Below, one piece after another: positions 4,629 through 34,985 of a DNA stretch of 36,504 nucleotides (the first letter of the stretch is position 1; each line of letters opens with the position of its first letter). Source of the DNA: an uncultured Porphyromonadaceae bacterium (lineage in GTDB: Bacteria; Bacteroidota; Bacteroidia; Bacteroidales; Muribaculaceae). The DNA is taken from contig CAMWNP010000029.1 in NCBI GenBank assembly GCA_947175645.1, positions 1 to 36,504 on the forward strand, given 5' to 3'. The translations under genes and the position numbers were made by a program. A model generated the notes under the pieces. That model did not search any database and was not told the DNA's origin. It was given only the letters and a program-made list of their open reading frames with translations.

Positions 4629-4735
4629 CGATGAGCAAGCTCAACTCAGACGTAGCCTGCGACTTGCTTGCGAGGGATTCAAAGAATCCTGCTCGAGCTT
4701 CGCTCGCGCAAGGCTCCTTCTCTGATTGCGATGGT
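4629..4735. repeat. Hairpin island A (three-base-loop hairpins)
   Basis: A GC-richer island sits inside the repeat array. It holds GGATTC-AAA-GAATCC (4675-4689) and CGAGC-TTC-GCTCG (4694-4706), both perfect with three-base loops. It also holds the 17-base element CTCAGACGTAGCCTGCG (4645-4661). The left edge GCACGTACGA and right edge TGCGATGGTGAGCA are nearly the same as in the island at 14137-14213. No coding content is seen. Confidence 0.7.
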
Positions 4736-4783
4736 GAGCATACATGTGAACATATGAACAGCATCTTTCTCAGTAACCCGAAA

Positions 4784-4835
4784 TTTTAACACTCTATTTT
4801 TGTACCAAATTTGCAATCAAAGCTTATTTTTATTC
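4784..4835 (+). promoter_or_regulatory. Two-box upstream region of rpb1
   Basis: Box 1 is TTTTAACACTCTATTTTT followed by GTACC. Box 2 is TTATTTTTATTC at 4824-4835, ending about 17 bases before the ATG. After box 2 comes CT..ATAAAC..AAT and then ATG. rpb2 has the same two boxes with nearly the same spacing (29072-29130). Box 2 matches the common TTATTTTTRTY motif. Box 1 appears only before these two polymerase genes. Confidence 0.7.
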
Positions 4836-4851
4836 TTCTCATAAACACAAT

Positions 4852-7800
4852 ATGTTCGATATTGAGAAGTACCAAGTTTTTAATTCTAATGCTGCTTACC
4901 AACTTCGGTTAGCACCTGATGAGGAGATTCTCAATCGAGCCGAAATTGTCTATGATGCTCAGCGACTCATATCCAAAAACAACACACTTGACTCAGGTCT
5001 GTTCGGTTCTACAATCATGAATCCTATCTGTGACATATGTTACAATCGAGTTGAGGAGTGTAGTGGACACTTCGCAGTCATTCAACTACCATTCCCGATA
5101 GTTCGAATGATTTGCATCAAGGACTTCAAACTACTGTTACCAATCATATGTCCAATATGTTCAGCATTACTATGCGAACATGTGGAGAACTCATTACGGT
5201 TAGAACCAGATGCAAGACTTGATTGGATTCGCAAAGAGGTTGATAAGTTCACGAAATCAGGTGAAGCGTCAGTCAAATGTCCGCGATGTAATCACACAGT
5301 TGTTCCAATTCGCATCATACAGCAAGAACCAATGTTTCGCATTGGATTGATTAACATCTCGACGAACACAGCGGAGCAAATGAATCCTATCTACATTCAA
5401 ACCATTCTCCAGAACTTCAACCAACTGGATGAAATTGGATTCTCTCGCAACTTCCATCCGAAGAACTTCATGACATCCATCATACCAATCATTCCGAACA
5501 AGTTAAGGCCAAAGACCCTTACATCATCGGAGTCAACATTGACATCGTACTATCGCGTCATTGTCGAAGAGATATGTCCGGAACTTGAAAAGGTTTACAA
5601 GACTGTTTCATCTAGATTCACACCAATCATTGAGCGCGGTGATATTGCAAACACATTCAACAAGTTCTATGATCGCCTCATGGCTTACTACCTACTCATT
5701 ACTGATATAGGTACAGACAAGACGCGCGAGACTGAACTCACATTGATTGAGAAGCGTGATCGCAAACATGTAGACATACACAACTCACTCATCGGTAGAT
5801 TCAAAGATAAGGAGAAGTCAATCTTCACCAAAGGAATCATCGACAGTCGTGTTAACATATCAGTGCGATCAGTACTTGGTGGCACTGTTGATAGCGGTGT
5901 TCAGTGTGTCAATGTTCCTTACCATATTGCGAACAAGCTCACAATGCTATATCCGGTGTACACTCAGAACATCAAACTTATGAAGCAAATGGTTGCTGCT
6001 ATGTCGGATGTTAGCATAGTGAAGAACATTAATATTCCACATGTGTTGGCAATCCTTGATTCGCGAACCAACAAGCTGACAAAAATAACTGTCAAGAATG
6101 CGCTGACCATTGCATCAACACTTCGACCTGGTGACAAAGTTGCTATTACATTGTTGAATGGTGACCTTGTTATGCAGTCCAGATTTCCAGCGATTCGTGA
6201 AGAATCATGGGGTTCGTTCCAAGTTGTGAAGGACAACAACACAATCGTCACAATCCCGCTATCAGTATGTAAGATGAAGATGGCTGACTTCGATGGTGAT
6301 GAAGCACAGATTTATGTATTAAGTTCTCACGTCACAGATGTTGAAGCACTATTGCTACATAGTGCATATCAACAACTCATTGCTTACAAAGATGGTAATC
6401 CGGCGATTTGGTACAGTGCTGATGCACCATTCGGGTTAGCAAAAGTCAAGCCAGGTGCTAAGTCATACACATACAACGGCAAGGCTGTCAATCCACCTAT
6501 TGACGTTGTACAAGTTGCTGAGTCATACTTCCCGAAGGACTTCAGATATAAGGATAAGAAGACTCATATCATTGATGGTAAGTTCGTCGATGGTAAGACA
6601 TCAATTGACAATAAGGAGATGCATAAGTACATGTGTTCACTATATGGTGCACAGACTACAGAAGCATTTATGGACAAATGCATTCAGCTCGCATATGATC
6701 TTAACCATGATTATGGTACTACTCTCGGGTTTGAGATGCGTGTCTACGGTAAAGATGCACAAGAACGAATCAAGTCATTGGTGCGAACCATGTATGAAGA
6801 CATGAAGAGAGTTGAACAATCCAACATCAAGCATAAGGATATGATTCAAATCAACATTACCGAGAAAGGTAAAGCTGAAATCAAACAAATCTTGTTCGAT
6901 TCTGCGAAAGGTACTAATGTTGACAAACTCGGGTTCACCGTTGAGAGACAGGATGAGTACTACCAGATTGTTGTCATGTTGGATCACATTACTAGTGACG
7001 GCATGAGAATCAAACCAGTATTGGCTGAAGGTACAAGAGTGAACTGTGCATTTCCACGTGATTCGATTGACCCATGTGCTTACGGATTTGTGAAGTGTGG
7101 ATATGATGGTGACAAGAGTCCAATCGTTGAGTTCTACGAGAGTAAGCAACAACGATATAGCTTGTTCGTCAAGGGTAAAGGTACTGCTAAGCAAGGATAT
7201 ATGAGCAAGAAGTTGTGCGTCACATATGGTAACAACTTCGTTGACTATAATGGTCAACTCATTAATAATTTCAAGATTGTCAGCACTCAGTACGGCTGTT
7301 GTGGTCTCAATCCGAGGTTGTATGTATTGCAACAAATGCCTGACATCTTCATGGGTAGAAGTGAGTTCGTGAAGAAGTATAGCGACAAGAGACTTGTTGA
7401 GTGTTATGACAAGATTCATGAGTACATGGATAGGTATGCAACATTTACGAACTTCACGAAGTTGGAAGCAGTCAAAGATACATTTGTTGCAGGTGTCAAT
7501 TACAAAGAGTTCATCGAGAATCATGCTGAGAAGGGTAAGACTGACCAGAAGCTGATTGACAAGTTTGTGAGCGACATATATGAAGCATTCTGTCCACCAG
7601 CATATAGCGAACAGTATATCAAAGAGAATCTTGTTGAACATGAGTACTTCTTCCGTGCGAAGATGCAAGAGTACAAGTGTAGTGATGAGGTTTGTCAGAA
7701 GTTATATGAGTTGTTCATCTGGAGTCTTGTTGACGGTGGTGACCCTGTGGGAATGAAAGCAAGTATTGCCACATCTGAACCACTCACGCAAGCTACATTG

Positions 7801-8851: not shown

Positions 8852-8902
8852 ATATATTTTTGAGACTGCGCAAGCTCGTCTCTCCGAGCTACGCTCGTTG
8901 CG
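8852..8902 (+). terminator. 3' motif plus nested hairpin after rpb1 (island B)
   Basis: ATATATTTTTG begins seven bases after the rpb1 TGA. It is followed by a nested palindrome with an outer stem CGCAA (8869-8873) and TTGCG (8898-8902). The inner perfect hairpin is CGAGC-TAC-GCTCG (8885-8897). The inner stem is identical to one in island A at 4694-4706. Motif plus hairpin resembles a transcript 3' end, but this is inferred. Confidence 0.55.
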
Positions 8903-14094: not shown

Positions 14095-14345
14095 GTACTG
14101 GTCGACATATAGGTCAACATATGTTGTTAGCATTCGAGCACGTACGAATCGTAGATTCGCAGGATCGCGAAGCGATCTTAGTGCACTCAGGCTTTGTCTG
14201 CGATGGTCAGCAATGTATGTTCCGACATGAATAGTCAACACTTGTGTGTCGACACATAGGCGAGCATCGAACCATCGCAATTTGGTCAGCATGTACTGTT
14301 CACATCATTGTGACCCATGTATGTCAACACACAATATTTACCAAT
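14095..14345. repeat. 13-bp-unit array containing hairpin island C
   Basis: This 329-base gap (14083-14411) starts and ends with repeat units such as GGTCGACATATAGGTCAACA. The core, 14137-14205, is a hairpin island with CGAATC-GTA-GATTCG (14145-14159) and GATCGC-GAA-GCGATC (14163-14177). It also has the 17-base element CTCAGGCTTTGTCTGCG (14186-14202). All loops are three bases. Its edges GCACGTACGA and TGCGATGGTCAGCA match those of island A. Confidence 0.75.
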
Positions 14346-16605: not shown

Positions 16606-16610
16606 TGTGT

Positions 16611-16780: not shown

Positions 16781-16797
16781 CATATTGCGAATAATAA

Positions 16798-18974: not shown

Positions 18975-19300
18975 CATATTGACCACTCATGCGAAGTACA
19001 TATGTTCACCGATGTGCTCACCATCGTATGCGGACAGTGCATGTTCACCGATGTGTTCACTATCGTATGCGGACAGTGCATGCGTACAATACATGCGAAG
19101 TACATATGCTGACCACTCATGCGAACAGTACATGTTCACCGATGTTGTAAGCAGGTGTGTGTCAACATATACATGTAACTAGTCATATCAACTCGATGGG
19201 AACAAAGTCCACTCAGCCTTTGGCTGCGGTGAGCAGGTGTATGTGAACACTTATGTCAGCACATATGGTATGCATATGTATGTGAACAATGTATGTAACC
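18975..19300. repeat. 13-bp-unit array with hairpin island D
   Basis: This lies in a 406-base gap (18958-19363). The left half has forward units (TGTTCACCGATGTG three times, TGCGGACAGTGCA twice, TGCGAACAGTACA). After the hairpin island the units run in reverse (GGTGAGCAGGTGTATGTGAA). The island holds CAGCC-TTT-GGCTG (19214-19226), a perfect three-base-loop hairpin inside the 17-base element CTCAGCCTTTGGCTGCG (19212-19228). The array changes orientation close to the hairpin. Confidence 0.75.
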
Positions 19301-22956: not shown

Positions 22957-22959
22957 AGT

Positions 22960-23182
22960 GGTTGGTGTATATGCTGATACTAGGTGAACATATGTTGTTT
23001 GCATGTATTGTCAGCATTGTATGTCGACATATGGGTGAACATGATGTGTTACTGGTTATGTCGACATATGGGTGAACATATAGGTAACAAGATATATTGA
23101 CACATAGGTAGCCACACATATGTTGATATAGACACATGTAACTACTTCGAGGTGAGCAATGCATGTCAACACATGGTGAACA
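22960..23182. repeat. 13-bp-unit array, reverse orientation
   Basis: Units include GTCGACATATGGGTGAACAT (twice, about 23021 and 23061) and GGTGAGCAATGCATGTCAAC. They run up to the promoter motif of the next gene. Confidence 0.7.
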
Positions 23183-23184
23183 TA

Positions 23185-23195
23185 TTATTTTTGTC
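23185..23195 (+). promoter_or_regulatory. Promoter-like motif TTATTTTTGTC
   Basis: It is 21 bases before the ATG at 23206 and identical to the boxes before dut and the 13333 gene. Confidence 0.6.
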
Positions 23196-23205
23196 ATTTA
23201 CTCAA

Positions 23206-24144: not shown

Positions 24145-24145
24145 G

Positions 24146-24280
24146 TTATTTTTTTGCGATGCATGCGTGTCTACCATACTCGTGACAGCTCATGCGAACA
24201 TTCGATGTGACATACATATGCTGACCATACTCGTGACATACATATGTTGACCATCTTGTGAACAATGTATGTGATATTAC
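24146..24280. repeat. 3' motif and 13-bp-unit array
   Basis: TTATTTTTTTGCG (24146-24158) is followed by a block CATACATATG(C/T)TGACCAT present twice (about 24212 and 24237), with CTCGTGACA or CTTGTGAACA between. It runs up to the next gene. Confidence 0.65.
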
Positions 24281-24292
24281 AACATCAAAAAT

Positions 24293-24622
24293 ATGTTTAA
24301 ATCAACACGTACAACATCCGAAGATAAATTTACATATATCGCATGGTTAGAAACATTAACACTTCGCGAGATAGTGGTACATATGCAAGAGTCACCAGAG
24401 AAAGCTCAACAGTTCTATGATAACATCTCGAATGAGTTTGATATAAGCTTCAAAGTCAAAGCTGCTGCATTGATATATCTGATTAAGACTCAGTACAAGA
24501 ATGAGCCTGAAGTTATAAGTTTTGACTATGACTTTCAAACACTGCTCAACAAGTCATATGTACCCGAATATGACTATGTTATTATCAAACAATTGTATCA
24601 GACATTGTATGAACGACCATGA
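24293..24622 (+). CDS. Hypothetical protein, 109 residues
   Basis: I do not recognise it. The protein looks all-helical: segments such as FTYIAWLETLTLREIVVHMQ and VKAAALIYLIKTQYKNEPEV carry amphipathic patterns, ending in YVIIKQLYQTLYERP. There is no membrane helix, zinc site or signal peptide. The start ATG overlaps a CAAAAATATG stretch, the same string found before the leader hairpins at 3343 and 3428. The usual promoter box is absent and there is no 3' motif. It precedes two related small genes (24815 and 25708), but I see no similarity to them. Confidence 0.7.
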   Translation: MFKSTRTTSEDKFTYIAWLETLTLREIVVHMQESPEKAQQFYDNISNEFDISFKVKAAALIYLIKTQYKNEPEVISFDYDFQTLLNKSYVPEYDYVIIKQLYQTLYERP

Positions 24623-24624
24623 GA

Positions 24625-24790
24625 TGTTGACATACAAGTGTGAACAACATATGGATTACATGTCCTCGCGAACATATGGTTGACATGTGTGTGTGAACAA
24701 TACACAACTTACATGTCCTCGCGAACATATGGTTGACATGTGTGTTTGAACAATACACAACTTACATGTCCTCACGAACATATGGTTGAC
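24625..24790. repeat. 53-bp tandem repeat within 13-bp-unit array
   Basis: A 53-base period is clear: TTACATGTCCTCGCGAACAT starts at 24656 and at 24709, and again with one change at 24762. The unit continues ATGGTTGACATGTGTGTGTG and AACAATACACAAC. The copies are almost identical, so the expansion is recent. Confidence 0.85.
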
Positions 24791-24805
24791 ATATATTTTT
24801 GCATC
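24791..24805 (+). promoter_or_regulatory. Promoter-like motif ATATATTTTTGCATC
   Basis: It begins 24 bases before the ATG at 24815 and supports that start over an upstream open frame in repeat DNA. Confidence 0.5.
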
Positions 24806-24814
24806 GATGCAAAC

Positions 24815-25309
24815 ATGACTGATTTATTATATTCAAGTCTTGCAGCGGATGAGTTGACTAAGAAGACAATCAAAAACCTAGTGCCATACTTCCAATGCAA
24901 TCCATCGGAATATGACATGTTCAAATGTATGGTCGAAGGTAAAATGTATTATGATGTGATTTGTGAAACTGACATCGAGAATATTCTAAAGGTTGATAGA
25001 CAAAAAGATTATGTAAGAGCTGTTTCGCAATATGAGAGTAATGAACAGTTAAAACAAGATGTTTTAGATGGGTATTGTTTCGCATTGCATGTACTTGGGT
25101 TTAGGTATGTCCATTTGTGTAGTCCACGAACTGATTACATTCAGTACAAACTCGGATTGATGTTGTTGATGCTTGCATATGGATATGACAAAGCTAACAA
25201 TGTACTGAAACTATACTTCAAGAATATTGACCTGGAAGAGATTGCCAAACTCAAAACATTCGCAGATATGTCGAAGTTTGTAGATGAACATGCCTGGAAA
25301 GGTAACTGA
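24815..25309 (+). CDS. Hypothetical protein, 164 residues (paralog of the 25708 gene)
   Basis: The function is not recognised. The protein is helical and acidic. Its N-terminal half matches the gene at 25708: LVPYFQCNPSEYDMFKCMVE aligns with IAEYFQDNQDDYNLFRCKVE. VLDGYCFALHVLGFRYV also aligns loosely with ALDGDAAARYKLGVRLL. The two are therefore diverged copies. The second alignment has the look of a Sel1- or TPR-like helical repeat, which I regard only as a possibility. Upstream in-frame codons from 24740 are repeat DNA. CATATTTTTGTTC follows the stop at 25316-25328. Confidence 0.75.
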   Translation: MTDLLYSSLAADELTKKTIKNLVPYFQCNPSEYDMFKCMVEGKMYYDVICETDIENILKVDRQKDYVRAVSQYESNEQLKQDVLDGYCFALHVLGFRYVHLCSPRTDYIQYKLGLMLLMLAYGYDKANNVLKLYFKNIDLEEIAKLKTFADMSKFVDEHAWKGN

Positions 25310-25460
25310 TTTTGTCATATTTTTGTTCAACTCCCGAGTTCGAGGTAGTTGTGAAACTTTTTGAAAATTGAAGTTAACCATGTCCTGGACAGGTGTTGAT
25401 TACATGAGTGGTCAACATGTGGTTCGCATGTATGTGTCGATATATGTACTTCACATGGAG
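25310..25460. repeat. 3' motif, partial third copy of the inverted-repeat element, short 13-bp array
   Basis: This is the first part of a 398-base gap without a gene (25310-25707). CATATTTTTGTTC comes first. GTTGTGAAACTTTTTGAAAA and then AAGTTAACCATGTCCTGGAC (25349-25390) form a shortened copy of the element at 25461-25620, apparently deleted between two GAAAATTG strings. Reverse-sense 13-bp units follow. Confidence 0.65.
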
Positions 25461-25620
25461 CTGTCGGAACATAGGTCAACAATTGAATCTTACTATGTCC
25501 TGGTCATGACAAAAATGAATTCTCGAGATGTGTCAGAAACTCGAGAGTTGTGAAACTTTTTTGAAAATTGGTCTTCGACATGAATTTTGAAAATTGAAGT
25601 TAACCGTGTCCTGGACAGGT
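25461..25620 (+). repeat. Left arm of an inverted repeat of about 150 bp
   Basis: The arm runs from TGTCGGAACATAGGTCAACA to CCGTGTCCTGGACAGG. Its reverse complement, with few differences, is at 27251-27405. It contains an internal hairpin TCTCGAG (25520-25526), loop of 12, CTCGAGA (25539-25545). In the other arm the stem sequence differs but still pairs. The two arms enclose the 25708 and 26383 genes. Confidence 0.8.
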
Positions 25621-25707
25621 ATTGATGCAAGCCATGTTGTGACATATATGTTGGCATATCATGCGAACTACTTACGTCAACACCACTCTTCTTTATCGTA
25701 CGTGTAA

Positions 25708-26178
25708 ATGCATAATATCAACACAGGACTGTTGGACTCGATTGCTGAGTACTTCCAAGACAATCAAGATGACTACAACCTATTTCGTTGCAAAGTCGAG
25801 AAGAAGATGGTTGCAAACAATATATGTGAATATGACCTTTATGTCATGTTCGAAGTTGACCAGAGGAACATCAACCATTTGGAGAACATCGAGAATGAGA
25901 ACAATGCTGTATTGAAACGTTATGCATTGGATGGAGATGCTGCTGCAAGATATAAGCTTGGAGTTAGATTGCTATGGGAGTACAGACAATGGCATGAAGT
26001 TTCGAAGTTTCTCATAGGGTTTGCACTACTATGTTTGTCTAATACGTTATGGGATTGTAAGCAGTACATTCGTGACAATTTTGATGATGAGGTATTGAAA
26101 TCCACTATGTCGAAAGGATTCACTGTCGAACATATGTTCAACCTTGCTCGAACATGTATGAAGCGCGTACATTGGTGA
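25708..26178 (+). CDS. Hypothetical protein, 156 residues (paralog of the 24815 gene)
   Basis: The protein is a diverged copy of the 24815 gene (matching segments YFQDNQDDYNLFRCKVEKKM and LDGDAAARYKLGVRLLWEYR). The phrase A-A-A-R-Y-K-L-G-V-R-L-L resembles the A-x-x-x-L-G-x-x-Y pattern of Sel1-like repeats, but there is only one, so this is weak. The second half is helical (EVSKFLIGFALLCLSNTLWD) and ends in a basic tail. No promoter box is seen. The ATG at 25708 is chosen because the paralog starts at a matching place. A CATATTTTTGTTAC motif lies at 26203-26216. It lies inside the inverted repeat. Confidence 0.72.
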   Translation: MHNINTGLLDSIAEYFQDNQDDYNLFRCKVEKKMVANNICEYDLYVMFEVDQRNINHLENIENENNAVLKRYALDGDAAARYKLGVRLLWEYRQWHEVSKFLIGFALLCLSNTLWDCKQYIRDNFDDEVLKSTMSKGFTVEHMFNLARTCMKRVHW

Positions 26179-26202
26179 ACGATATGCTCACATGAATAGT
26201 AA

Positions 26203-26370
26203 CATATTTTTGTTACTTTCGACACATAGTCAACATATGTACTTCGCACTGTACGTCGACACATACGTTGTTCATACGACTGGTCAACATAGTACCTTTA
26301 CACATAGGTCAACATACAATGCTCACCACCCCATGAACCAGACAATGATAAATCATTATTATCTCGATAT
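26203..26370. repeat. 3' motif and 13-bp-unit array
   Basis: CATATTTTTGTTAC is followed by reverse-sense units (GTCGACACATACGTTGTTCA, GGTCAACATACAATGCTCAC). The stretch ends about 20 bases before the next ATG, with no promoter box visible. Confidence 0.65.
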
Positions 26371-26382
26371 GTAACTACACAT

Positions 26383-27147
26383 ATGTCACAAGATTCATAT
26401 GAATGGACCAATGAAGAACTACGAACCATTAACAGATTTGTTACATTCTTAGAGTCAACCCAAATTATACAGAATGATTCATTGAACACTAACGAGCGAA
26501 TAGATATGTTGAACGCACTTAGATTCATTAAGTATGATTACAACAATCTTAACATGGACCTCGAAACATTGAGTTTGCTATTGAATAGTAACGACTCATA
26601 TGACGAAGGTCTATTGAATGAATGTGCTAATATTGACCGCAATGACCTAACCGAAAATGAAGACCATGCATTTGTTACAAAAATAGTTCGAATGATGAAG
26701 AACAGCTTAGATGCTGAAGACCTTATTCAATACAACATTACACTAGATGATATTGTTCGATATAGAGATTACATCAATCTCGAGCGAATTGAATATGTTA
26801 ACATGCCTAATCAAACAATATACTCATCAGATTCATTGCGAGGATTCTTTATGAACTGTGAATCATTATGTGAGGTTAACATTGCTGGCTTAACATCGAA
26901 ATGTTTGACAGATATGAGTGAAATGTTCAGTTGTTGCTATAACCTCAAATATGTTAACATCTCGAATATGAAGATTCCGAATGTCAAGCACATGGAATCT
27001 ATGTTTGAGAATTGCGGAATGTTGGAAATAGTGAATATGACAAACATATTTGCATCGCGAGGATGCAACACAAGTAATATGTTTATATTCACAAACAGCA
27101 ACATATCTATTGACACAAGTTTCTCGAACGTTCGCTGCGGAGCATAG
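26383..27147 (+). CDS. BspA-type repeat protein, 254 residues (shares N-terminus with the 27662 gene)
   Basis: The N-terminal 130 residues are acidic and helical. They begin YEWTNEELRTINRFVTFLES, which aligns with IEWSYAELETIDKFIKQMRS of the 27662 gene, so the two form a subfamily. Only three or four BspA-like repeats follow: DSLRGFFMNCESLCEVNIAG, CLTDMSEMFSCCYNLKYVNI and NVKHMESMFENCGMLEIVNM. The end is short and lacks most of the usual cap, so the gene may be C-terminally truncated. A TGTATTTTTGA motif occurs about 40 bases after the stop. It lies within the inverted repeat with the 25708 gene. Confidence 0.85.
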   Translation: MSQDSYEWTNEELRTINRFVTFLESTQIIQNDSLNTNERIDMLNALRFIKYDYNNLNMDLETLSLLLNSNDSYDEGLLNECANIDRNDLTENEDHAFVTKIVRMMKNSLDAEDLIQYNITLDDIVRYRDYINLERIEYVNMPNQTIYSSDSLRGFFMNCESLCEVNIAGLTSKCLTDMSEMFSCCYNLKYVNISNMKIPNVKHMESMFENCGMLEIVNMTNIFASRGCNTSNMFIFTNSNISIDTSFSNVRCGA

Positions 27148-27185
27148 TTGAACTTTGACTCGTCACGTTCATTGAATGATGTGAG

Positions 27186-27250
27186 TGTATTTTTGACATA
27201 CTCGAGTGAATAGTATGCGAACCACATGTTAACCATTCATGTAATAAACA
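27186..27250. terminator. 3' motif TGTATTTTTGA and short repeat tail
   Basis: The motif (27186-27196) is farther from its stop than usual. About 50 bases of forward 13-bp units lead to the right arm of the inverted repeat. Confidence 0.4.
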
Positions 27251-27405
27251 CATGTCCAGTACATGGTAAGATTCAATTTTCAAAATTCATGTCGAGAACC
27301 AATTTTCAAAAAGTTTCACAACTCTCAAGTTTCTGATACATCTTGAAATTCATTTTTGTCATGACCAGGACATAGTAAGATTCAATTGTTGACCTATGTT
27401 TCGAC
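27251..27405 (-). repeat. Right arm of the inverted repeat of about 150 bp
   Basis: This is the reverse complement of 25461-25620 with scattered differences. The internal hairpin is TCTCAAG (27323-27329) with CTTGAAA (27342-27348), loop of 12. One pair is switched from G-C to A-T and one is a wobble, so pairing is kept. Inside the arm, CAAAATT strings mark the slippage points seen in the shortened third copy at 25349. Confidence 0.8.
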
Positions 27406-27630
27406 ACATACATGTTGACCACTCATGTGAAGTACATATGTTGACATACACATGCTCACAAGTCATGCGAGTCATACATGCTCATGCGTAGCTCTGAAGG
27501 ATTCTTTGAATCCCTGAGTCGTCTCACGAAGGATTGTTTCACAATCCCGCGACTTCGTCGTACGAAGCGCATAGCGCTCACCACTCATGTGAAGTACATA
27601 TGTTGACATACACATGTGAACAACACTCAT
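27406..27630. repeat. 13-bp-unit array with hairpin island E
   Basis: The island (27483-27580) holds four perfect hairpins, all with three-base loops. They are GGATTC-TTT-GAATCC (27499-27513), GGATTGT-TTC-ACAATCC (27531-27547), CGAC-TTC-GTCG (27550-27560) and AGCGC-ATA-GCGCT (27566-27578). Its left edge, CATGCTCATGCGTAGCTCTG, is identical to that of island F at 34631. The flanks are forward units such as TGTTGACCACTCA and TGTGAAGTACATA. With the inverted-repeat arm this fills 27148-27661. Confidence 0.75.
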
Positions 27631-27634
27631 CAGT

Positions 27635-27646
27635 TTATTTTTGTTC
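27635..27646 (+). promoter_or_regulatory. Promoter-like motif TTATTTTTGTTC
   Basis: It is 27 bases before the ATG at 27662 and identical to the box before the 14964 gene. Confidence 0.6.
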
Positions 27647-27661
27647 GCACTTCAATTCGCA

Positions 27662-28669
27662 ATGAATATCGAATGGTCATATGCTGAACTTGAAACAATT
27701 GACAAATTCATTAAACAAATGCGTAGTTACATTAATACCTATCGACCCGACGAAGATAATTATACTGCTGAGCATCTTGTGACAGAGCTTGAACAGCTTC
27801 GAAGTGTAAACTATAACGTGAGCAATATCAACCTACCAATCAATATCTATTTCTATTTCAACGGAGGTTATTACAATGATGATATATACTACGATACTGA
27901 AACCATTGATTTCAACATCCATCATGACCATCTCATGAATGACAATTTTGAACTCATCAGCACACTCACATTATTACAGAATGACATCAAAGATGTAAAC
28001 CTTCATGATATGCATGTACCTGCGAATGTACTGACAAACATACTCAGTAACCACGTGATTACAAAAATAGTATTAACAAATGTAACATCCGAAATCACAA
28101 CCTTCGTAGGAGTTGCAAAATGTTCGAACATTGAATATGTTGAATTTGTGAATTTCAATACTCCGAATCTAATCTCATGTGCGGAAATGTTCACAAATTC
28201 TAATCTTAGATATGTAAACATCACTGGTTGGAATGCACCTAATCTATTGGATGCAAGCTATATGTTCTCAGAATGTTATCATTTAAAACAAATAGTAGGT
28301 AGTAATAACTTTATTAAATCACGAGTGAGAACACTTGAAGGCATGCTATCAGAATGTGAAGATTTGCAAACATTCGATGTAACAGGATGTGATATCTCAA
28401 ATGTCACAAACATGAGTAACATGTTCTATGGTTGCAAGAATCTGCTACATATTCGAGGTTTAGAACATCTGATTCTGTTCAGTGTAATCAATATGAAGAT
28501 GATGTTCTGCGGCTGTGATAGATTGAACAATGTCACTATTACATTCGGAGATGATACTGAAGTTGATAAAGAAAAGATAACATCCATGTTCGGTGATAAT
28601 GATGATGAATGTAATTTGTATGTAATGGTCAACACTAAATGCGAGAAGTTTGCGATAGGTCTATCGTAA
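27662..28669 (+). CDS. BspA-type repeat protein, 335 residues
   Basis: The N-terminal 130 residues are acidic and helical. They share the opening motif (IEWSYAELETIDKFIKQ) with the 26383 gene. BspA repeats follow: FNTPNLISCAEMFTNSNLRY, WNAPNLLDASYMFSECYHLK, CDISNVTNMSNMFYGCKNLL. The C-terminus (CNLYVMVNTKCEKFAIG) is a family-type cap. Seven extra upstream codons could be read from a TTG inside the promoter motif; the ATG at 27662 is the better start. AAATATTTTGCA after the stop is a weaker form of the 3' motif. Confidence 0.88.
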   Translation: MNIEWSYAELETIDKFIKQMRSYINTYRPDEDNYTAEHLVTELEQLRSVNYNVSNINLPINIYFYFNGGYYNDDIYYDTETIDFNIHHDHLMNDNFELISTLTLLQNDIKDVNLHDMHVPANVLTNILSNHVITKIVLTNVTSEITTFVGVAKCSNIEYVEFVNFNTPNLISCAEMFTNSNLRYVNITGWNAPNLLDASYMFSECYHLKQIVGSNNFIKSRVRTLEGMLSECEDLQTFDVTGCDISNVTNMSNMFYGCKNLLHIRGLEHLILFSVINMKMMFCGCDRLNNVTITFGDDTEVDKEKITSMFGDNDDECNLYVMVNTKCEKFAIGLS

Positions 28670-28679
28670 GAAAATATTT

Positions 28680-29065
28680 TGCACTGGATGGTCAACGTAC
28701 GTCGCGATGCATTAGTGCCGAAGTATGTTACGACTGCTTCATGTTGACCATGTTGCGACAGTTCTATGTGAAGTACATATGTTGACCATGTTGCGACAGT
28801 TCTATGTGAAGTACATATGTTGACAATGTTGCGACTGGCGCCATGCTCACCACATCTTGTAACATATACATGTTCACCATGTTGCGACAGTTCTATGTGA
28901 AGTACATCGCTTACATGTATTGCTTACCATCTCGTGATATACAAGTGTGGACAGTACACATGTCTTGACATACATGCGAGTCATACAAGTGTGGACAACT
29001 CCATGTTCACCAGCTTGCTCACAACACACTGTTCACATCATCCATCACTCATCATCTCGTCAACA
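28680..29065. repeat. 13-bp-unit array with 38-bp tandem copies
   Basis: This occupies most of the 477-base gap before rpb2. A block of about 38 bases, TGTTGCGACAGTTCTATG then TGAAGTACATATGTTGACCA, is repeated at about 28754, 28792 and, partly, at 28881. Other units are TGCTCACCACATC and TGCGAGTCATACA. No hairpin island and no gene are seen. Confidence 0.8.
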
Positions 29066-29071
29066 TAGATT

Positions 29072-29130
29072 TTTTAACACTCTATTTTTATACCTCGTGT
29101 GAGCACTTCGAGTCCACATTATTTTTATTC
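29072..29130 (+). promoter_or_regulatory. Two-box upstream region of rpb2
   Basis: Box 1 is TTTTAACACTCTATTTTT (29072-29089), then ATACC. Box 2 is TTATTTTTATTC (29119-29130), 28 bases before the ATG. Then come ACTACATAAACCGAAT and ATG. rpb1 has the same boxes and nearly the same final leader. The intervening sequence is not conserved, so the boxes themselves are probably what is selected. Confidence 0.7.
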
Positions 29131-29146
29131 ACTACATAAACCGAAT

Positions 29147-32100
29147 ATGTCTAGCCTTACCAAAGACCTTTACAATATGACTCAAGACAAAATCGCTGAC
29201 GAGAATGACGAGCGATACATGAACAACGCTCTTCTATACCCTGTAGCGAAAGCATTCCTTGAGAAGTTCCCACAGTACTACGACATCATTCGCACATATG
29301 AATTCTCAATGGATGCAATCCCGAATGTGGTAGGCAAGACTGCTGTCTGCAAAGAGTACATCACAATTGACAAAACAACATTCATTGTGTTTCAATGTAA
29401 TGTTGAGAATGTTCGCATATACTCACCTGACACAATTGAGGCTTACCAATATTCTAACTTCGGATATGTTCCTACTCCAAATGTAGCACTGTCGAAGAAA
29501 GGTTTATACTCCGCCGTACTGGTCGGAGATATATGTTACACATATTCCATCTACCACAAGTCTTCAGCATTCGAAGGTTACAGTGATATAGTCAATACTG
29601 TAAATAACTCCGCAACTACAACAACGTTCTCCAATAAGGTTCCAAATGGGTATTGCGTCAATATTCCAATCCCGATTGGTTGCAAATACTGTTCACTCAA
29701 TCACTATGACGAAGCAACGCTAATCAAGTCTGGTGAAGAACTTCGTGAACTGTATGGTTTCTTCATTGTTGACGGGTTTGTTCGTTACATCCTTCCAATC
29801 TACAAGAAGCCATTCAACAAACCAATCATCTACAAAGAGAACTACGAAGAACGTCTGTCACAGACACAGACAATCTACACGAAGGAATATGAGTATGAGA
29901 ATTCATATTACATCGTCGGTGCAATGGTTGCACCCAAGAATGCTCACAGTGGTCGTGGTGGACAGATTGCGAACATTCCTGATTTTGGATTCTCGTTGCA
30001 ATTGAATCATCCAACTATGAACACTGATTCGAACTACAGTGGGAAGAAGTCAAAAAAGCTTATCAACTTTGTGCCAATCAAGTACTTGTTCGCAGCATTT
30101 GATTGCGTTACTGATGAAGACATGATGAAGTACATATGTCCGCAGATGGACAACTTTGGTTGTATCAATGCGATTCGCCAGGCATGTCTACAAGGATATA
30201 AGCATAAGGAGATTATCAAGAATGCAGCTATTAAGTTGCGAAGTTCAGGTGAATACATATTGTACGCAGAACCAATTACATCATACACTGCGAAGTACAT
30301 CATCGGCACTGCGATATTGTCACAGAAGACTAAAGATGATTTGCTCGAGAAGTGTAATAAGAATGAACAGGAGTACAAGACATTAGTAGTCAATACTGTC
30401 TCCGAGATTCTTGACACAAGATTCATGCCAGGTATTGGTTGCACAGGAAATGTTGACGTTGATCGTAACACTGCTGTCTGCACCGAGATTGGCAACATTG
30501 TGAAGTCATTATATGAAATTGGATATGGTCTTGAAGCATCGCAAGACAAGACTAGTTTGACCAACAGGCGAATACGAAATGGTCAACAGATGATTCAAGA
30601 ATTTAAGACGTTCCACAACGTGCGAATGAGGGAGTTGTTCGCAGAAGTCAAACCACTGTTCCAAACATCTAAGGACCCCAGACACATCAACGAGAGACTC
30701 AAAAATATGATGCTCACCATTGCGAAGAATATAAGCATAGCTCAATCCAAATCGTTGATCAACTCATTCAAAGGTACAAGTAAAGAGCAAAGTAAGATTC
30801 GAACTGACCTAATCAAATTGAAGAATCAAGCATTCGTGTGGAACAAGTTGCGCGAGATTGTGATTAGCAGTGATACTAAGCAAGTTGGTGCAACTGTCTC
30901 ATGGGAACATAGAACTGTTCACCAGTCTGAGTTGTTCTTCATATGTCCGACACAGACACCTGAGAGTGGTGCGAACACAGGTAGGTTCAAGACTCCAACA
31001 CTATACACATATTTGACATTGTCGAGTAGTGGGAATAAGTTGATGAACATCATCAAGAAGAGTGAGACTTACATCAACAATATCAGGTTGTCCGAACATC
31101 CGGAGTTGATGTACACCATACGGTTGAACGGGAATATTTGCGGATATGTTGAACAGTATGGTCATGTCGAAAAGTTGTATAAGGATTTGATGCAAGCTCG
31201 TGCTGACGGAAGGGTTGAAATTGATGCTAGCATCATACTTAATCACAATTTGGGTAGACTTGACTTGTGGACCGATACTGGTAGAATCGTAAGTCCATTC
31301 GTAAATGTTGCCAATGCTTTTGAGATTGAGATTGTCGGGAGTGATGCGAAGAGTGATGTTGAACATAGTGTGCAGAGTACTATGCTGACTGGTGGTGGAC
31401 AGTGTGGTGAGCATGATGTTGACCACACTGGTGACCACGCATGCGGACATACATCTCTCGCAGGTTCATCAACCAACTCAGGCAACCTATCACTCAAATG
31501 TATCGTGAAACCAAAGCAGGCATTCAAGGATTGGTTGTCCAAATGTACAACATCAGTCAATACATTCGATGATGGTTTCAAACAAGGGTTCATCGAGTAC
31601 TTTGACCCGGAGATGTGTATCAATAATGCTGTTATAGCTCCAAGCATGAAGGAGTTCCTCGAGAATGCAACAATGTACACACACTGTGCATTACCAGGAC
31701 ATATTCACGGAATTATTGCTGCGATGGTGCCAGGCATGAACATGAACGCATCTGTACGAACAGCACTGATGACCAACCATGTCAAGCAAGCTATTGGACC
31801 TGTACTTCGATACCCACAGCTCAAGTACATCGATGATAATAACATTCTCATCTCACCACAAGTGCCAATCATAAGACCTTGCACATATGACTTCCTACAT
31901 ATGAACGAGACACCATGCGGTCAGAATGTAATTGTCGCATTCATGCAAGAGAAGTACAACCAAGAGGATGCTATCATAATGAATCGCTGTAGTGTCGAAC
32001 AAGGACTGTTAAAGATTGATTCGTTGTGCATGAAGGAGTACAAGATTGACCACAACGATGAAGCTTTCAAAGTGCCATCAGGTAACATCACATTGAATGG

Positions 32101-33157
32101 CAATCCGGATAGTTACAGCAAACTTGATCCGGCGACAGCACTGCCAAAACGTGTTGGCGATACATTCTTCGAAGGTGATGTGTTGATTGGTAAAGTCAAT
32201 ACTTCGCATGAAGGTGAGACTGATACGTCAATACTGAATGATAGACCGGATGGTAAGTATCCAATCAGTGCAACCACTAGACCTTTGCGATGTATTGTCA
32301 AAAATAAGGTCCACACTGAGGACAACATTATGAAGAAAGTCATGTTTGGTCAATATCGTGTTCCCATTGTCGGTGATAAGTTCAATAGTGAACATGCACA
32401 GAAAGGCACATGTGGTATCGTAATGGATCCGGAACAGATGCCTTACAATTCAACAGGTATCAGGCCGGACATCATCTTCAACGCAAGCAATATCTTCAAG
32501 CGTAAGACATTCGGACACATCTACGTCCCGATGATACAGAAGATTGCTGCATTGTTGGGTTGCCCATTGGATTGCACACCATATCATACTGCGAGGACAA
32601 CAGAGGACATTGTGAAGTTGTTTGCTAAAATGGGATTGGATGACTGCGGATTTGAAACAATGTATGACCCAATCACTGGCAGACCATTCCAGATGAGAAT
32701 CTTCATGGCATCGCACTATTGGGAGCGTCAGAGTCATCTTGTCGAGCAGAAGTTGAATGTTCGAAATGGTGGTCCGCGAGTACCTGAAACAGGTCAGCCA
32801 ATGAAAGGACGTAAGCATCATGGTGGTCAATCAATTGATAGAATGACATTTGATTGCCATATTGCGAGCGGTATATGTGAAATGATTCGAGACATACACT
32901 TGAATCAAGGCAGTAAAATCAGAGTTGGTATTTGCAACAGATGCAAGACTACCATGGGTTATTACCACGGTGATAGACGTGAATATGTTTGCCCATGCTG
33001 TGGTGCACATAAGGACTTTATCATTCGTGAGATACCACCAGCGTCTGCATTGATGTTTCACATATTCAATGGTTTGCATATTGCAATTGACTACTTCGAG
33101 AATCCTCGAGAGTGGAGGAAGGAAGAAGAGATGATGAAAGCTATCAGTAATATGTAA
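29147..33157 (+). CDS. rpb2: DNA-directed RNA polymerase subunit 2 (Rpb2-like)
   Basis: The protein has 1336 residues and is the second-largest polymerase subunit, which pairs with Rpb1 to form the active site. Conserved blocks appear in order. They include IPIGCKYCSLN with LYGFFIVDGFVRYILP (protrusion), WEHRTVHQSELFFICPTQTPESG (fork) and YNQEDAIIMN (about 938). VGDKFNSEHAQKGTCG (GDKF at 1076) carries active-site lysines. The C-terminal clamp has QPMKGRKHHGGQSIDRM and a zinc site CNRC...CPCC. The usual HNQSPRN motif reads MNASVRT, which is odd. Residues about 739-775 (EHSVQST to AGSSTN) form a low-complexity Gly/His/Asp insert coded by intergenic-type repeat DNA. I start at 29147, not at the GTG 48 bases earlier. 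TATATTTTTGC follows the stop. Confidence 0.96.
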   Translation: MSSLTKDLYNMTQDKIADENDERYMNNALLYPVAKAFLEKFPQYYDIIRTYEFSMDAIPNVVGKTAVCKEYITIDKTTFIVFQCNVENVRIYSPDTIEAYQYSNFGYVPTPNVALSKKGLYSAVLVGDICYTYSIYHKSSAFEGYSDIVNTVNNSATTTTFSNKVPNGYCVNIPIPIGCKYCSLNHYDEATLIKSGEELRELYGFFIVDGFVRYILPIYKKPFNKPIIYKENYEERLSQTQTIYTKEYEYENSYYIVGAMVAPKNAHSGRGGQIANIPDFGFSLQLNHPTMNTDSNYSGKKSKKLINFVPIKYLFAAFDCVTDEDMMKYICPQMDNFGCINAIRQACLQGYKHKEIIKNAAIKLRSSGEYILYAEPITSYTAKYIIGTAILSQKTKDDLLEKCNKNEQEYKTLVVNTVSEILDTRFMPGIGCTGNVDVDRNTAVCTEIGNIVKSLYEIGYGLEASQDKTSLTNRRIRNGQQMIQEFKTFHNVRMRELFAEVKPLFQTSKDPRHINERLKNMMLTIAKNISIAQSKSLINSFKGTSKEQSKIRTDLIKLKNQAFVWNKLREIVISSDTKQVGATVSWEHRTVHQSELFFICPTQTPESGANTGRFKTPTLYTYLTLSSSGNKLMNIIKKSETYINNIRLSEHPELMYTIRLNGNICGYVEQYGHVEKLYKDLMQARADGRVEIDASIILNHNLGRLDLWTDTGRIVSPFVNVANAFEIEIVGSDAKSDVEHSVQSTMLTGGGQCGEHDVDHTGDHACGHTSLAGSSTNSGNLSLKCIVKPKQAFKDWLSKCTTSVNTFDDGFKQGFIEYFDPEMCINNAVIAPSMKEFLENATMYTHCALPGHIHGIIAAMVPGMNMNASVRTALMTNHVKQAIGPVLRYPQLKYIDDNNILISPQVPIIRPCTYDFLHMNETPCGQNVIVAFMQEKYNQEDAIIMNRCSVEQGLLKIDSLCMKEYKIDHNDEAFKVPSGNITLNGNPDSYSKLDPATALPKRVGDTFFEGDVLIGKVNTSHEGETDTSILNDRPDGKYPISATTRPLRCIVKNKVHTEDNIMKKVMFGQYRVPIVGDKFNSEHAQKGTCGIVMDPEQMPYNSTGIRPDIIFNASNIFKRKTFGHIYVPMIQKIAALLGCPLDCTPYHTARTTEDIVKLFAKMGLDDCGFETMYDPITGRPFQMRIFMASHYWERQSHLVEQKLNVRNGGPRVPETGQPMKGRKHHGGQSIDRMTFDCHIASGICEMIRDIHLNQGSKIRVGICNRCKTTMGYYHGDRREYVCPCCGAHKDFIIREIPPASALMFHIFNGLHIAIDYFENPREWRKEEEMMKAISNM

Positions 33158-33166
33158 GAGTGACAA

Positions 33167-33177
33167 TATATTTTTGC
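33167..33177 (+). terminator. Putative 3' end motif TATATTTTTGC
   Basis: It lies nine bases after the rpb2 stop and is the same motif as after dut. Confidence 0.5.
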
Positions 33178-33370
33178 GCATGTGCTTACATATATGCGGA
33201 CAGTATATGTTCATTGTATATGTACATTGTACATGCGGACATACAAGTGCGGACATAGTATGTCGACACATGGCTCACATACATGTGAACAATACATGTC
33301 GACACATATGCGGACAGCTCCATTCAACCCACTCATGCGAAGTACATGCGAAACTCATCGACCTAGCATG
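33178..33370. repeat. 13-bp-unit array
   Basis: Units include TGCGGACAGTATA, TGCGGACATACAAG, TGCGGACATAGTA and TGTCGACACATGG. The string CATGCGGACATACA also occurs inside rpb2 at about 31439, linking the coding insert to this array. Open frames here are translated repeat. Confidence 0.75.
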
Positions 33371-33437
33371 ACTTTTAGCATCTAATGTCAAAAACATATG
33401 ACATAGTGATATGTTACTTTTATGTACATCACCAATT

Positions 33438-34595
33438 ATGATGTACAGACCTGAAGATGAATATGAGTTACTCGATATTATCAAAGAACTTGTTGAACAA
33501 AACAACACAACAATAGATGTTACCAATATTGATATCAGTGATGTTGATTGTTTATTGAACACATTCTCTGATTTGACAGAATTGGAAAACATAATAGGAA
33601 TTGACACATTGAACACATCGAATGTAGAAGATATGTATGACATATTTAGAGGTTGCAAGTCATTGCAACAACTTGACTTATCACATTGGAATACATCCAA
33701 TGTAACTAATATTGTTAACGTGTTCGAAGAATGTGAATCGTTAACCAATCTCAACCTATCACATTGGGACACATCAAAGGTAAATAGTATGAACAGCGTG
33801 TTTAGAAGATGTGTTTCGTTAGTATATCTCAACCTATCACATTGGAATACATCGAATGTAAAAGATATGCGAGACATGTTCAGTCATTGTAAATCATTAA
33901 CCAATCTCAACCTATCACATTGGGACACATCCAACGTAAAAGATATGTCTTACATGTTTGAAGGTTGCAAGTCATTGCGAACACTCAATGTAACAGGATG
34001 GAACACATCAAAAGTCAAGTATATATCGTTTATGTTTCGTAACTGCAAATCGTTGGAAACCATTATTGGTATTGAATCATTCGACATATCTAATGTAACA
34101 GACATTAGTTACATGTTTTGTAACTGTGAATCATTGAAATCACTTGACTTATCGAAGTGGAACACAAGCAAAGTTGATAACATGAAATGCTTATTTCTTA
34201 AGTGTGCAAGCTTGGTAAATCTGAATGTTAGCACATGGGACATATCGAATGTTAAACTGATGGATTACATGTTTGATGAATGTGAATCATTAATCAAACT
34301 CGATTTGCATAATTGGGAACTAATACAAGGTTACCGAAAGGATAAGTGGTGTTTCGCACGTTGTGCATATAGAATGTTTGGACACCTAATGCATTCTAGA
34401 CATTCACATAACAAAACATGTAAAAACTACGATGTTAAACATATATGGCTGAAAGCGCTTGATTATGACAAGAGTGGTAAAGAAAGATTGTTCGGAGAAT
34501 CGGAAGTAGTAATACACTTACCAAATGATGAAAGCATTTATGTGAACTGTATCGGTACAGATAGATATTACTCAGATGATTACTCAGATTATTAA
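33438..34595 (+). CDS. BspA-type repeat protein, 385 residues
   Basis: A short acidic leader (YRPEDEYELLDIIKELVEQN) precedes about ten very regular 26-residue repeats. Examples are WNTSNVTNIVNVFEECESLT, WDTSKVNSMNSVFRRCVSLV and WDTSNVKDMSYMFEGCKSLR. The phrase LNLSHW recurs with nearly identical DNA, showing recent internal duplication. After the repeats comes a basic segment with His and Cys (YRMFGHLMHSRHSHNKTCKN), not seen in the other members. The end is the cap VVIHLPNDESIYVNC and an acidic tyrosine-rich tail (YYSDDYSDY). Starts at 33411, 33438 or 33441 are possible; I take the middle one. A TTATATTTTTACA motif follows the stop. Confidence 0.88.
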   Translation: MMYRPEDEYELLDIIKELVEQNNTTIDVTNIDISDVDCLLNTFSDLTELENIIGIDTLNTSNVEDMYDIFRGCKSLQQLDLSHWNTSNVTNIVNVFEECESLTNLNLSHWDTSKVNSMNSVFRRCVSLVYLNLSHWNTSNVKDMRDMFSHCKSLTNLNLSHWDTSNVKDMSYMFEGCKSLRTLNVTGWNTSKVKYISFMFRNCKSLETIIGIESFDISNVTDISYMFCNCESLKSLDLSKWNTSKVDNMKCLFLKCASLVNLNVSTWDISNVKLMDYMFDECESLIKLDLHNWELIQGYRKDKWCFARCAYRMFGHLMHSRHSHNKTCKNYDVKHIWLKALDYDKSGKERLFGESEVVIHLPNDESIYVNCIGTDRYYSDDYSDY

Positions 34596-34597
34596 GA

Positions 34598-34610
34598 TTA
34601 TATTTTTACA
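34598..34610 (+). terminator. Putative 3' end motif TTATATTTTTACA
   Basis: It lies two bases after the TAA of the 33438 gene. Confidence 0.45.
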
Positions 34611-34611
34611 T

Positions 34612-34985
34612 CATTCGTTGTCGATGCATACATGCTCATGCGTAGCTCTGAAGTATTCTACGACAAGCGAAGCTTGGCTGGACTACGTCCCGAAGGCTCA
34701 GGCTCCGCCTGCGAAGCGATCACCATTCATGTGAAGTACATGTCGACACATATGCGGGCATACAAGTGCTGACAGTACATGTTGACATGTACTTTCAACC
34801 TACGTTGCGACACACTATGTCGACCACCCATGTAAGCCATGTGTCGACAGCTCCATGTCGACCACCCATGTAACCTATGTTGCGACATACACATGTCAAC
34901 ACTCATCGCAACACACTATGCAAACATATAGCTTACATACATGCTTACCATTCATGCTACATATGTATGTGAACACTACTGTTGC
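34612..34985. repeat. 13-bp-unit array with hairpin island F
   Basis: This is a 425-base gap (34596-35020). The island (34638-34720) holds CAAGC-GAA-GCTTG (34664-34676), GGAC-TAC-GTCC (34680-34690) and CAGGC-TCC-GCCTG (34699-34711). The last is inside the 17-base element CTCAGGCTCCGCCTGCG (34697-34713). All loops are three bases. The left edge CATGCTCATGCGTAGCTCTG equals that of island E. Forward units and a duplicated block, TGTCGACCACCCATGTAA (about 34827 and 34856), follow. Confidence 0.75.

Follow-up and report, generated by a model that had tools for sequence, protein, structure and literature searches.

Triloop hairpin islands in a virus-like genome: very probably accumulations of minute mobile double-hairpin elements with a three-nucleotide target duplication

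Introduction

Among the short palindromic sequences that spread through genomes, those closest to the present case come from fungal mitochondria. The double-hairpin elements (DHEs) of Allomyces and Schizosaccharomyces are short, mostly intergenic units of two adjacent GC-rich hairpins that are considered potentially mobile (PMC10085805, PMC4618339). The GC clusters of yeast mitochondria are likewise palindromic, GC-rich and mobile, merge into bigger clusters and vary more in their loops than in their stems, and their type GC42 is one 42-nt sequence with the target nucleotides AG (PMC4478555). In this study, we have analysed a stretch of 36,504 nucleotides (hereafter the window), which is contig C29 (CAMWNP010000029.1) of an assembly of 3.17 Mb and 139 contigs filed as a prokaryote genome (G000, GCA_947175645.1). 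An earlier note had pointed to six islands of small hairpins in its intergenic DNA. Our results indicate that these islands are very probably, for the most part, accumulations of very small mobile double-hairpin elements with a 3-nt target duplication. This reading draws on the geometry of the hairpin pairs, their flanking duplication and the paired differences in their stems. It also draws on their being present in some paralogues and absent from others, nested in each other, in frame where they lie in genes, and confined to virus-like contigs of the assembly.

Further palindromic repeats are known from other settings. Rickettsia palindromic elements (RPEs) of about 150 bp lie in frame within unrelated genes and form families with a conserved peptide (PMC10969869, PMC6649704). 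The byps of Magnusiomyces capitatus mitochondria are many short inserts in protein genes, at 81 positions (PMC5009743), and have been described as palindromic (PMC6649704); they disrupt reading frames and are skipped in translation. In giant viruses, the M1/M2 repeats of pithoviruses and the miniature inverted-repeat transposable elements (MITEs) of pandoraviruses are palindromic and spread through the genome, M1/M2 having terminal repeats of 54 and 47 bp, a 37-bp one inside, a putative TA duplication and an intergenic location (PMC10664404). PARCEL is palindromic coding DNA in DUF285 genes (PMC2996958), and the REP/BIME repeats associated with RAYT, a Y1 HUH transposase, carry an end tag of the GTAG or CGTC type (PMC3733652).

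Results

The window was compared with 114 stretches from C1, C26-C28 and C30-C139 (the first 20 kb of the larger contigs), C2-C25 lying outside the comparison; 19 of them were masked and excluded. By signature 7-mers and tetranucleotide profile the others formed two groups, 58 window-like contigs with 4.6 or more signature words per kb and a second group of 37 with at most 2.5, which, from this composition, we regard as bacterial. The 58 contigs and the window make up a virus-like set of 59 contigs and 436,832 bases, and removal of near-identical duplicates left 45 contigs and 367,698 bases. Positions outside the window are given with the label of their contig (L009 and so on).

Adjacent GC-containing hairpins separated by exactly 3 nt were found 32 times, against 4.1 in shuffled sequence. 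A 3-nt spacer together with an exact 3-nt flanking repeat occurred at 30 places (25 distinct bodies by our own count), against a mean of 0.0 in 8 shuffles, and no other combination of a spacer of 0-8 nt with a flanking repeat of at least 3 nt rose above 3 places. An unselected scan for two GC-rich hairpins 3 nt apart returned 26 pairs. The triplets on either side agreed fully in 14 of them, differed by one base in 8 and by more in 4, and in 19 pairs the central bases of spacer and flanks read C/G/G or G/C/C. A catalogue was compiled over ten geometries picked after earlier scans, with at most one mismatch over stems and flanks, a stem GC content of at least 40% and, for the 3-nt type, G as the central base of the spacer and C as that of the left flank; geometries combining 4-bp stems with loops of 4 or 5 nt were left out for their high shuffle counts. 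It holds 47 elements, whose left flanks are TCG (28), CCG (8), TCA (7), CCGAA (2), ACT (1) and CCA (1) and whose spacers are AGT (25), AGC (9), GGC (4), GGT (4), AGG (2), AAGGT (2) and CGA (1). The 3-nt type makes up 45 entries with 38 distinct bodies. Its flanks are exactly equal in 35 of the 45, a concordance that is selected by the mismatch limit and that compares with 22 of 26 pairs equal or one base apart in the unselected scan. The pairs TCG/TCG (22), TCA/TCA (7) and CCG/CCG (5) cover 34 of these 35 cases. Because the 3-nt flank varies jointly on both sides, it looks like a target duplication of the form YCR (Y, pyrimidine; R, purine) rather than a fixed end of the element. Beyond the class relation YCR/RGY, no correlation between spacer and duplication was seen. 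A rarer type, with two elements (L012:560-590 and L033:870-906), combines the 5-nt spacer AAGGT with the 5-nt duplication CCGAA, and spacer length equals duplication length here as in the 3-nt type. One and the same element body also stands at unrelated flanks at L030:1623 and L048:4683.

The hairpins themselves follow a loop rule. The earlier note had counted at least thirteen hairpins, nearly all with three-base loops, and the six that it quoted are all present where it placed them. The six islands (425 bp) contain 15 perfect hairpins with a stem of at least 4 bp and a loop of 3 (shuffle mean 1.57, maximum 6 in 200 shuffles), and loops of 2, 4, 5, 6, 7 and 8 are at chance level with 2, 1, 0, 2, 0 and 0 (shuffle means 1.4-1.7). 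Over the whole window the loop-3 excess is modest once AT-rich stems are included (stems of at least 5 bp: 57 vs 38.9±5.8, with 55 vs 41.5 for loop 2; stems of at least 4 bp: 157 vs 142.9±12.1). Across the 45 contigs, with at least three G/C per stem, loop 3 is the only length in excess, with 217 against 116 (20 shuffles) or 125 (3 shuffles), and loops of 1, 2 and 4-10 all fall under their shuffles (ratio 0.62-0.94). For GC-rich stems, the enrichment over loops of 4 and 5 on which that note had made its claim depend is therefore present. Counting distinct hairpins only, loop 3 reaches 144, against 74-104 for loops of 1, 2 and 4-10. Between genes, stems of at least 5 bp and at least 60% GC gave 39 hairpins with loop 3 and 2-11 with loops of 2 and 4-10 (shuffles 9-11.5). 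Without the GC condition, loops of 2, 4 and 5 gave 142, 137 and 111, and loop 3 gave 117 (shuffles about 80), and we take the excess at 2, 4 and 5 to be palindromes of the surrounding repeat DNA.

The proposed rule of loop length thus stands, and it can be made more specific: 180 of the 217 GC-rich triloops have the form R-N-A (N, any base) or the complementary T-N-Y, where shuffles have 50 of 116, and so do 110 of the 144 distinct ones. The excess over shuffles is 8.8-fold for GAA/TTC, 9.2-fold for GTA/TAC, 5.9-fold for AAA/TTT, 3.1-fold for GGA/TCC and 2.2-fold for ATA/TAT. A sheared G.A pair makes DNA triloops of the GNA type exceptionally stable when a C-G pair closes them. The fixed geometry of single triloop hairpins claimed before has to be amended, in that triloops do dominate but hairpins mainly come as units of two with 3 nt between them, and the 33-nt class has one 4-nt loop.

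In the 13 aligned elements of this 33-nt class, 99.2% of stem cells pair and 31 cells show double changes (8.3 when shuffled), with a covariation score of 0.682 against 0.179 shuffled and 0.003-0.137 in slid versions; as the elements were found via pairing, these values describe diversity under pairing and are no independent test of it. Only 8 of 36 alignment columns are invariant, and the stems pair yet have little sequence in common between copies. Of six elements folded singly as DNA, five are predicted to form the double hairpin. A covariance model (R1) was built from these 13 elements, none of them from the window. In the virus-like set (367.7 kb) it had 64 matches with an E of at most 1, 50 of them at E<=0.01 with the 13 training copies included, and the matches beyond training include 4629-4662, 14173-14203, 19194-19229 and 34675-34714 of the window. 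In 437 kb of other contigs it gave none at E<=0.01 and two weak matches. A run over the whole assembly with duplicate contigs (150 of 590 first-look candidates scored, training copies included) returned at least 50 matches at E<=0.01, every one on virus-like contigs, and among 197 other genomes of the phylum, under stricter filters, one had a match, of 25.9 bits. Exact patterns of a few element bodies gave no match in public collections besides the phage-like contig L123, where the double hairpin is not present and the match is taken as due to chance, and one island compared with a phage collection had none.

The presence of paired differences could also be expected if the hairpins were functional RNA or regulatory signals, such as terminators or processing sites, kept by selection, and their higher density outside genes (0.285 per kb, against 0.081 inside) would be in line with this. 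Such signals would not be expected inside open reading frames (ORFs), in both orientations and with presence and absence between paralogues, as is the case here. Moreover, the 7 bacterial-type terminator-like sites found in window 16600-36504 are all away from the islands, and the window has no Rfam match at the gathering threshold, and we regard this explanation as highly unlikely.

The elements can be seen as insertions where related sequences lack them. Inserts of 33 nt at L029:599, L029:5488, L029:5536 and L031:767 break into the DUF285 repeat, and the flanks joined without the insert read as ordinary uninterrupted repeat, for example LNLS-NWDTSNVTDM and WNTS-KVTNM. In L013, two paralogues in tandem, with 50% identity, are set apart by a gap of 23 residues (69 nt), and the element pair there consists of 36 nt nested in 33 nt, again 69 nt, when taken apart by an automatic peel at costs of 2 and then 1 (3 mismatches in total). 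In the ribonucleotide reductase of L016, 48 extra residues lie between those aligned to E. coli residues 40 and 58, an alignment whose N-terminal anchor is weak (1.2 bits; the ATP-cone has a Pfam E of 2e-4, below the cut-off). Two elements, one of 36 and one of 33 nt, peel out of this extra region at cost 0, and it also has hairpins that do not parse.

Islands also differ by successive nesting. Along one ladder of copies, the triloops are intact at L013:8070-8165; 33 nt are inserted in the triloop of TCAATC-ttc-GATTGA in L072; in L009 and L092, 36 nt more have entered the triloop of CATTCAC-NNN-GTGAATG, besides another 39 nt; and L010 has additional inserted sequence. We infer that the direction of this ladder is gain and not loss. 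The island L018:2907-3004 is three deep: an element of 36 nt (cost 1) lies within one of 33 nt, and that one, in the triloop CAGGC-tcc-GCCTG, within one of 32 nt (cost 0 for each of the latter two). The outer element of this island is found un-nested, with similar flanks, at L057:3950, and its body recurs between the unrelated flanks of L030:1623 and L048:4683. Joining the flanks of inserted elements restores four host hairpins with loops of the TCG/CCG type (TCAATC-ttc-GATTGA, CATTCAC-gaa-GTGAATG, CACATC-tcc-GATGTG and CAGGC-tcc-GCCTG) and a fifth with the loop gtt (GACTCC-gtt-GGAGTC); other peeled elements, among them window 34664, L020:3557 and L020:3608, have no clear host hairpin. The loops C-TTC-G and C-TCC-G contain TCG or CCG, and their complements CGA or CGG, and, judging from these positions, each element would therefore bring targets for others. 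Paired hairpins, a 3-nt flanking duplication, presence or absence in paralogues and self-nesting together bear out the likeness to mobile GC clusters and double-hairpin elements that had been suspected from the window. The polymorphism between strains that might have accompanied it did not appear in near-duplicate contigs (three pairs aligned, ten compared at their ends), which differ at contig ends, mostly, by eye, in tandem repeats, and not in elements.

Between near-identical copies, the loops of some hairpins are reverse-complemented (TAAA/TTTA between L009 and L092, gaa/ttc between L009 and L010), which suggests that the hairpins extrude or are copied through; these flips resemble the minute inversions of chloroplast DNA. 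Polymerase snap-back and template switching write perfect inverted repeats, and one could propose that the hairpin pairs arise in place by these processes and never move, their arms being kept identical by arm-to-arm copying. Diverse stems with near-perfect pairing, the loop flips, which are as expected of hairpin-mediated inversion, and the enrichment of pairs with spacers other than 3 nt would all agree with this. Such an origin predicts neither that paired hairpins, a spacer of 3 nt and a flanking repeat of 3 nt should go together (30 places against 0) nor that identical bodies should stand at unrelated flanks (L030, L048). We consider a non-mobile origin unlikely, and loop flipping may act on the elements after their insertion.

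The hairpins had been described as lying only in intergenic repeat DNA. This is correct for the window, but in the genome 25 of the 47 catalogued elements lie in ORFs of at least 500 nt (among these ORFs may be a few that are not real genes, and some of the 25 are copies of each other), and five more lie in short ORFs. The 25 inserts in longer ORFs are all multiples of three, compared with 11 of 17 intergenic ones, and among 22 hand-picked sites 20 are multiples of three, one is not (L018:753-784) and one has no spanning ORF (L012:8343). In-frame elements are found in the ribonucleotide reductase, in DUF285 repeats and in the two tandem paralogues; some copies share a peptide, and none is common to all elements. 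Since lengths of 30, 33 and 36 nt prevail in intergenic DNA too, passage through genes may have shaped the family. Avoidance of stop codons was considered as a sign of translation and is a weak one, as 168 of 240 element reading frames (70%) are open anyway.

Hairpin inserts within genes also bring to mind translational bypass, in which the ribosome would skip the insert as in the mitochondria of Magnusiomyces, and the two DUF285 genes that carry stop-bearing elements between still recognisable flanks (L012:8343 and L025:425-503) could be taken in its favour. Open frames are, at 168 of 240, weak evidence against it. Bypass would not need insert lengths in multiples of three, which is what is seen in 25 of 25 inserts in longer ORFs (a count to which the ORF bias discussed below applies) and at 20 of the 21 hand-picked sites with an ORF. 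We give hardly any credence to this explanation.

Within the window, the clearest case lies in the sixth island (34638..34720), where a perfect element at 34661..34693 on the minus strand reads TCG - GGAC gta GTCC - agc - CAAGC ttc GCTTG - TCG and amounts to a 30-nt insertion. Its body (34664-34690) is identical to L020:3608-3634, with flanks partly alike. An overlapping element-like match on the same strand (34675..34714, R1 26.3 bits) holds the hairpin CAGGC-tcc-GCCTG (34699-34711). At 14135..14203 (minus strand) there is probably an outer element of the 30-nt class, CGA - GCAC[loop]GTGC - act - CAGGC ttt GTCTG - CGA, with one stem mismatch and another hairpin pair inside its first loop; R1 matches 14173-14203 (18.6 bits, E 0.0094). 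This nested reading was made by eye and is probable, the automatic peel having found nothing there. The inner pair (14145..14177, plus strand), CGAATC gta GATTCG - cag - GATCGC gaa GCGATC, has the geometry 6/3 + 3 + 6/3, but its flanks GTA/TTA are one base apart and its spacer CAG is not RGY, so that the geometry is kept and the target and spacer rule is not. Hairpin pairs with a CTG or CAG spacer form a family of their own (also L009:15072-15106, L092:2388-2422 and L048:2662-2694), often next to TAA or its complement and without a TCG, TCA or CCG duplication.

Degenerate elements occur at 4629..4662 (minus strand, CGA at both sides, R1 32.5 bits, E 8.4e-7) and at 19194..19229 (minus strand, hairpin CAGCC-ttt-GGCTG at 19214-19226, spacer act, R1 18.7 bits, E 0.0093, peel cost 2), and possibly at 4675..4706, where the hairpins GGATTC-aaa-GAATCC and CGAGC-ttc-GCTCG are peeled weakly, at cost 2 only. 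The island 8866-8902 has the single hairpin CGAGC-tac-GCTCG (8885..8897) and parses as no standard element. The compound island 27483..27580 is made of hairpins of the GGATTC/GGATTGT family with spacers of 2-5 nt and shows no standard element boundaries (peel cost 2 only); about 27497-27565 recurs at 91% identity in C38 (L010) and at 87% in C75 (L020). The GGATTC family, to which L016:9861-9892 and L018:753-784 also belong, has spacers of 4-5 nt and flanks GAA(G)/TTC, and follows another rule.

The window encodes RNA polymerase subunits of the Rpb1 and Rpb2 types, a dUTPase and DUF285 repeat proteins, and no tRNA was found in it. A Pfam search of 128 further ORFs of the virus-like set (with at least 25 families for the 49 longer ORFs) has among the families listed DNA polymerase B, topoisomerase II, mRNA capping enzyme, helicases, class III ribonucleotide reductase, C5 methylase, ThyX and serine hydroxymethyltransferase. 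We read the virus-like contigs as a divergent nucleocytoplasmic large DNA virus, a placement that this gene content would suggest. Searches by RNA polymerase subunit 2, by ribonucleotide reductase and by a 51-residue conserved stretch, which reach close relatives only, revealed no virus relatives, and DNA polymerase B had no match among solved structures. The capsid family PF16903 gave no match either, which is uninformative as the positive control had none. The set holds both the class I (L016) and the oxygen-sensitive class III ribonucleotide reductase, together with ThyX and serine hydroxymethyltransferase, a combination that suggests an anaerobic host, and this host would probably be a protist.

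Some further observations concern the assembly. It is rated 99.94% complete and 0.35% contaminated, a score blind to the roughly 437 kb of virus-like DNA inside it. DUF285 leucine-rich repeats are hugely expanded (172 matches, duplicate contigs counted, on C29, C37, C66, C91 and others), and L052:231-10610 is one ORF of about 3,460 codons on a contig of slightly deviant composition. The intergenic regions of the window consist of degenerate units in tandem, containing words such as ATGTTGACC and GTGAACA, and many near-duplicate contig pairs terminate in arrays of such units.

Discussion

Based on our results, we propose a unit of two perfect hairpins with stems of 4-7 bp, triloops that are mostly R-N-A or the complement, and a 3-nt spacer that is mostly RGY, which would be flanked by a duplicated 3-nt target YCR (TCG, TCA or CCG). 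The change between paralogues would be insertion and not loss, with the movement itself deduced. Because the stems share little sequence and R-N-A triloops are unusually stable in DNA, mobilisation may recognise the shape of the hairpins and not their sequence, probably on folded single-stranded DNA. Insertion would then proceed via a break with a 3-nt stagger where a YCR is exposed, with a preference for exposed loops as targets, and islands could grow as the loops of the elements themselves contain TCG or CCG. Most copies would persist, since element and duplication together make a multiple of three that may be tolerated inside genes. In a bolder version, which we hold only tentatively and think somewhat more likely to be wrong than right, this would be a transposable element defined by shape alone, in which nothing but the 3-nt target, the RGY spacer, the C-G loop-closing pairs and the R-N-A triloops is conserved. 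It would travel as a folded pair of hairpins, perhaps in the form of a tiny dumbbell whose spacer RGY faces the target YCR, a single G-C pair being framed there by R.R and Y.Y mismatches; it would aim at triloops of its own kind, and its length would be tuned to the protein genes of a giant virus, to which each jump would add 10-14 amino acids.

Several observations speak against mobile elements of this kind, or against their being the only component of the islands. Hairpin pairs with other gaps are also in excess (gap 5, 20 vs 3.6; gap 1, 15 vs 3.0; gap 2, 11 vs 3.5; some further spacings to a lesser degree), and the 3-nt type is therefore not the whole story; pairs with a CTG or CAG spacer (window 14145, L009:15072, L048:2662) keep the hairpins and not the target rule. 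The automatic peel of 17 islands, for which there is no shuffled control, removed a first unit at cost 0-1 in 9 and at cost 2 only in 5, and found none in 3 (window 8840, window 14120 and L018:690). Six elements folded as DNA have z-scores of -1.2 to -3.5, with L013:12321 predicted as a single hairpin, and R-N-A loops with a middle C or G, GGA apart, are barely or not enriched (ACA 12 vs 11.6, GCA 4 vs 4.7, AGA 9 vs 5.3). The count of multiples of three is biased, as a frame-breaking insert ends the ORF and escapes the count; the insert L018:753-784, in an ORF of 1,419 nt, parses as 35 nt (with uncertain boundaries, next to another element), and the DUF285 genes at L012:8343 and L025:425-503 are broken by element-borne stops. 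Searches for close relatives found no second strain or relative, so that movement is deduced from paralogues of one assembly. As for a mobilising enzyme, be it viral or of the host, none was found: the families listed for the 128 ORFs, many of which have no family, include no transposase, and Y1_Tnp (PF01797) matches in the assembly only contig C12, outside the compared contigs, on which R1 lists no element.

The comparison with known systems is closest for DHEs, with which the elements have in common two adjacent stem-loops and, at the level of paralogues, optional presence. Importantly, there are clear differences. The contigs are not mitochondrial, as they carry Rpb1- and Rpb2-type subunits, DNA polymerase B, capping enzyme and ribonucleotide reductase, and the elements, measured against the published descriptions of DHEs only, are set apart by their virus-like genome, 3-nt spacer, 3-nt YCR duplication, R-N-A triloop rule, lengths that are mostly multiples of three and stems with little common sequence. 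They work like DHEs, but we do not class them as DHEs because the setting differs. Unlike GC42, they have variable stems and a YCR duplication in place of an AG target. The in-frame position within genes is shared with RPEs, whereas a length of 30-42 nt and the lack of a common peptide are not; byps disrupt the frame, whereas the present elements mostly keep it. The terminal inverted repeats that copies of a MITE have in common are absent, each end being its own hairpin with different stems. DUF285 is abundant in this assembly as in genes with PARCEL, but the elements interrupt that repeat and PARCEL is the repeat itself, and no tag of the REP/BIME kind stands in the invariant columns (33-nt class only). 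The earlier note knew of no such class in a large DNA virus, and in the open-licence literature we likewise found no double-hairpin elements in giant viruses, only the palindromic MITE-like repeats of pithoviruses.

In conclusion, DHEs have been reported from mitochondrial genomes, in accounts that do not explain how they move, and our results add a set that obeys clear rules and belongs to a virus-like genome. Since its target duplications match, paralogues offer empty sites and nesting goes three deep, the insertion rule can be read directly from this set. The elements also suggest a route by which very small selfish DNA may add peptides to essential enzymes without breaking them.

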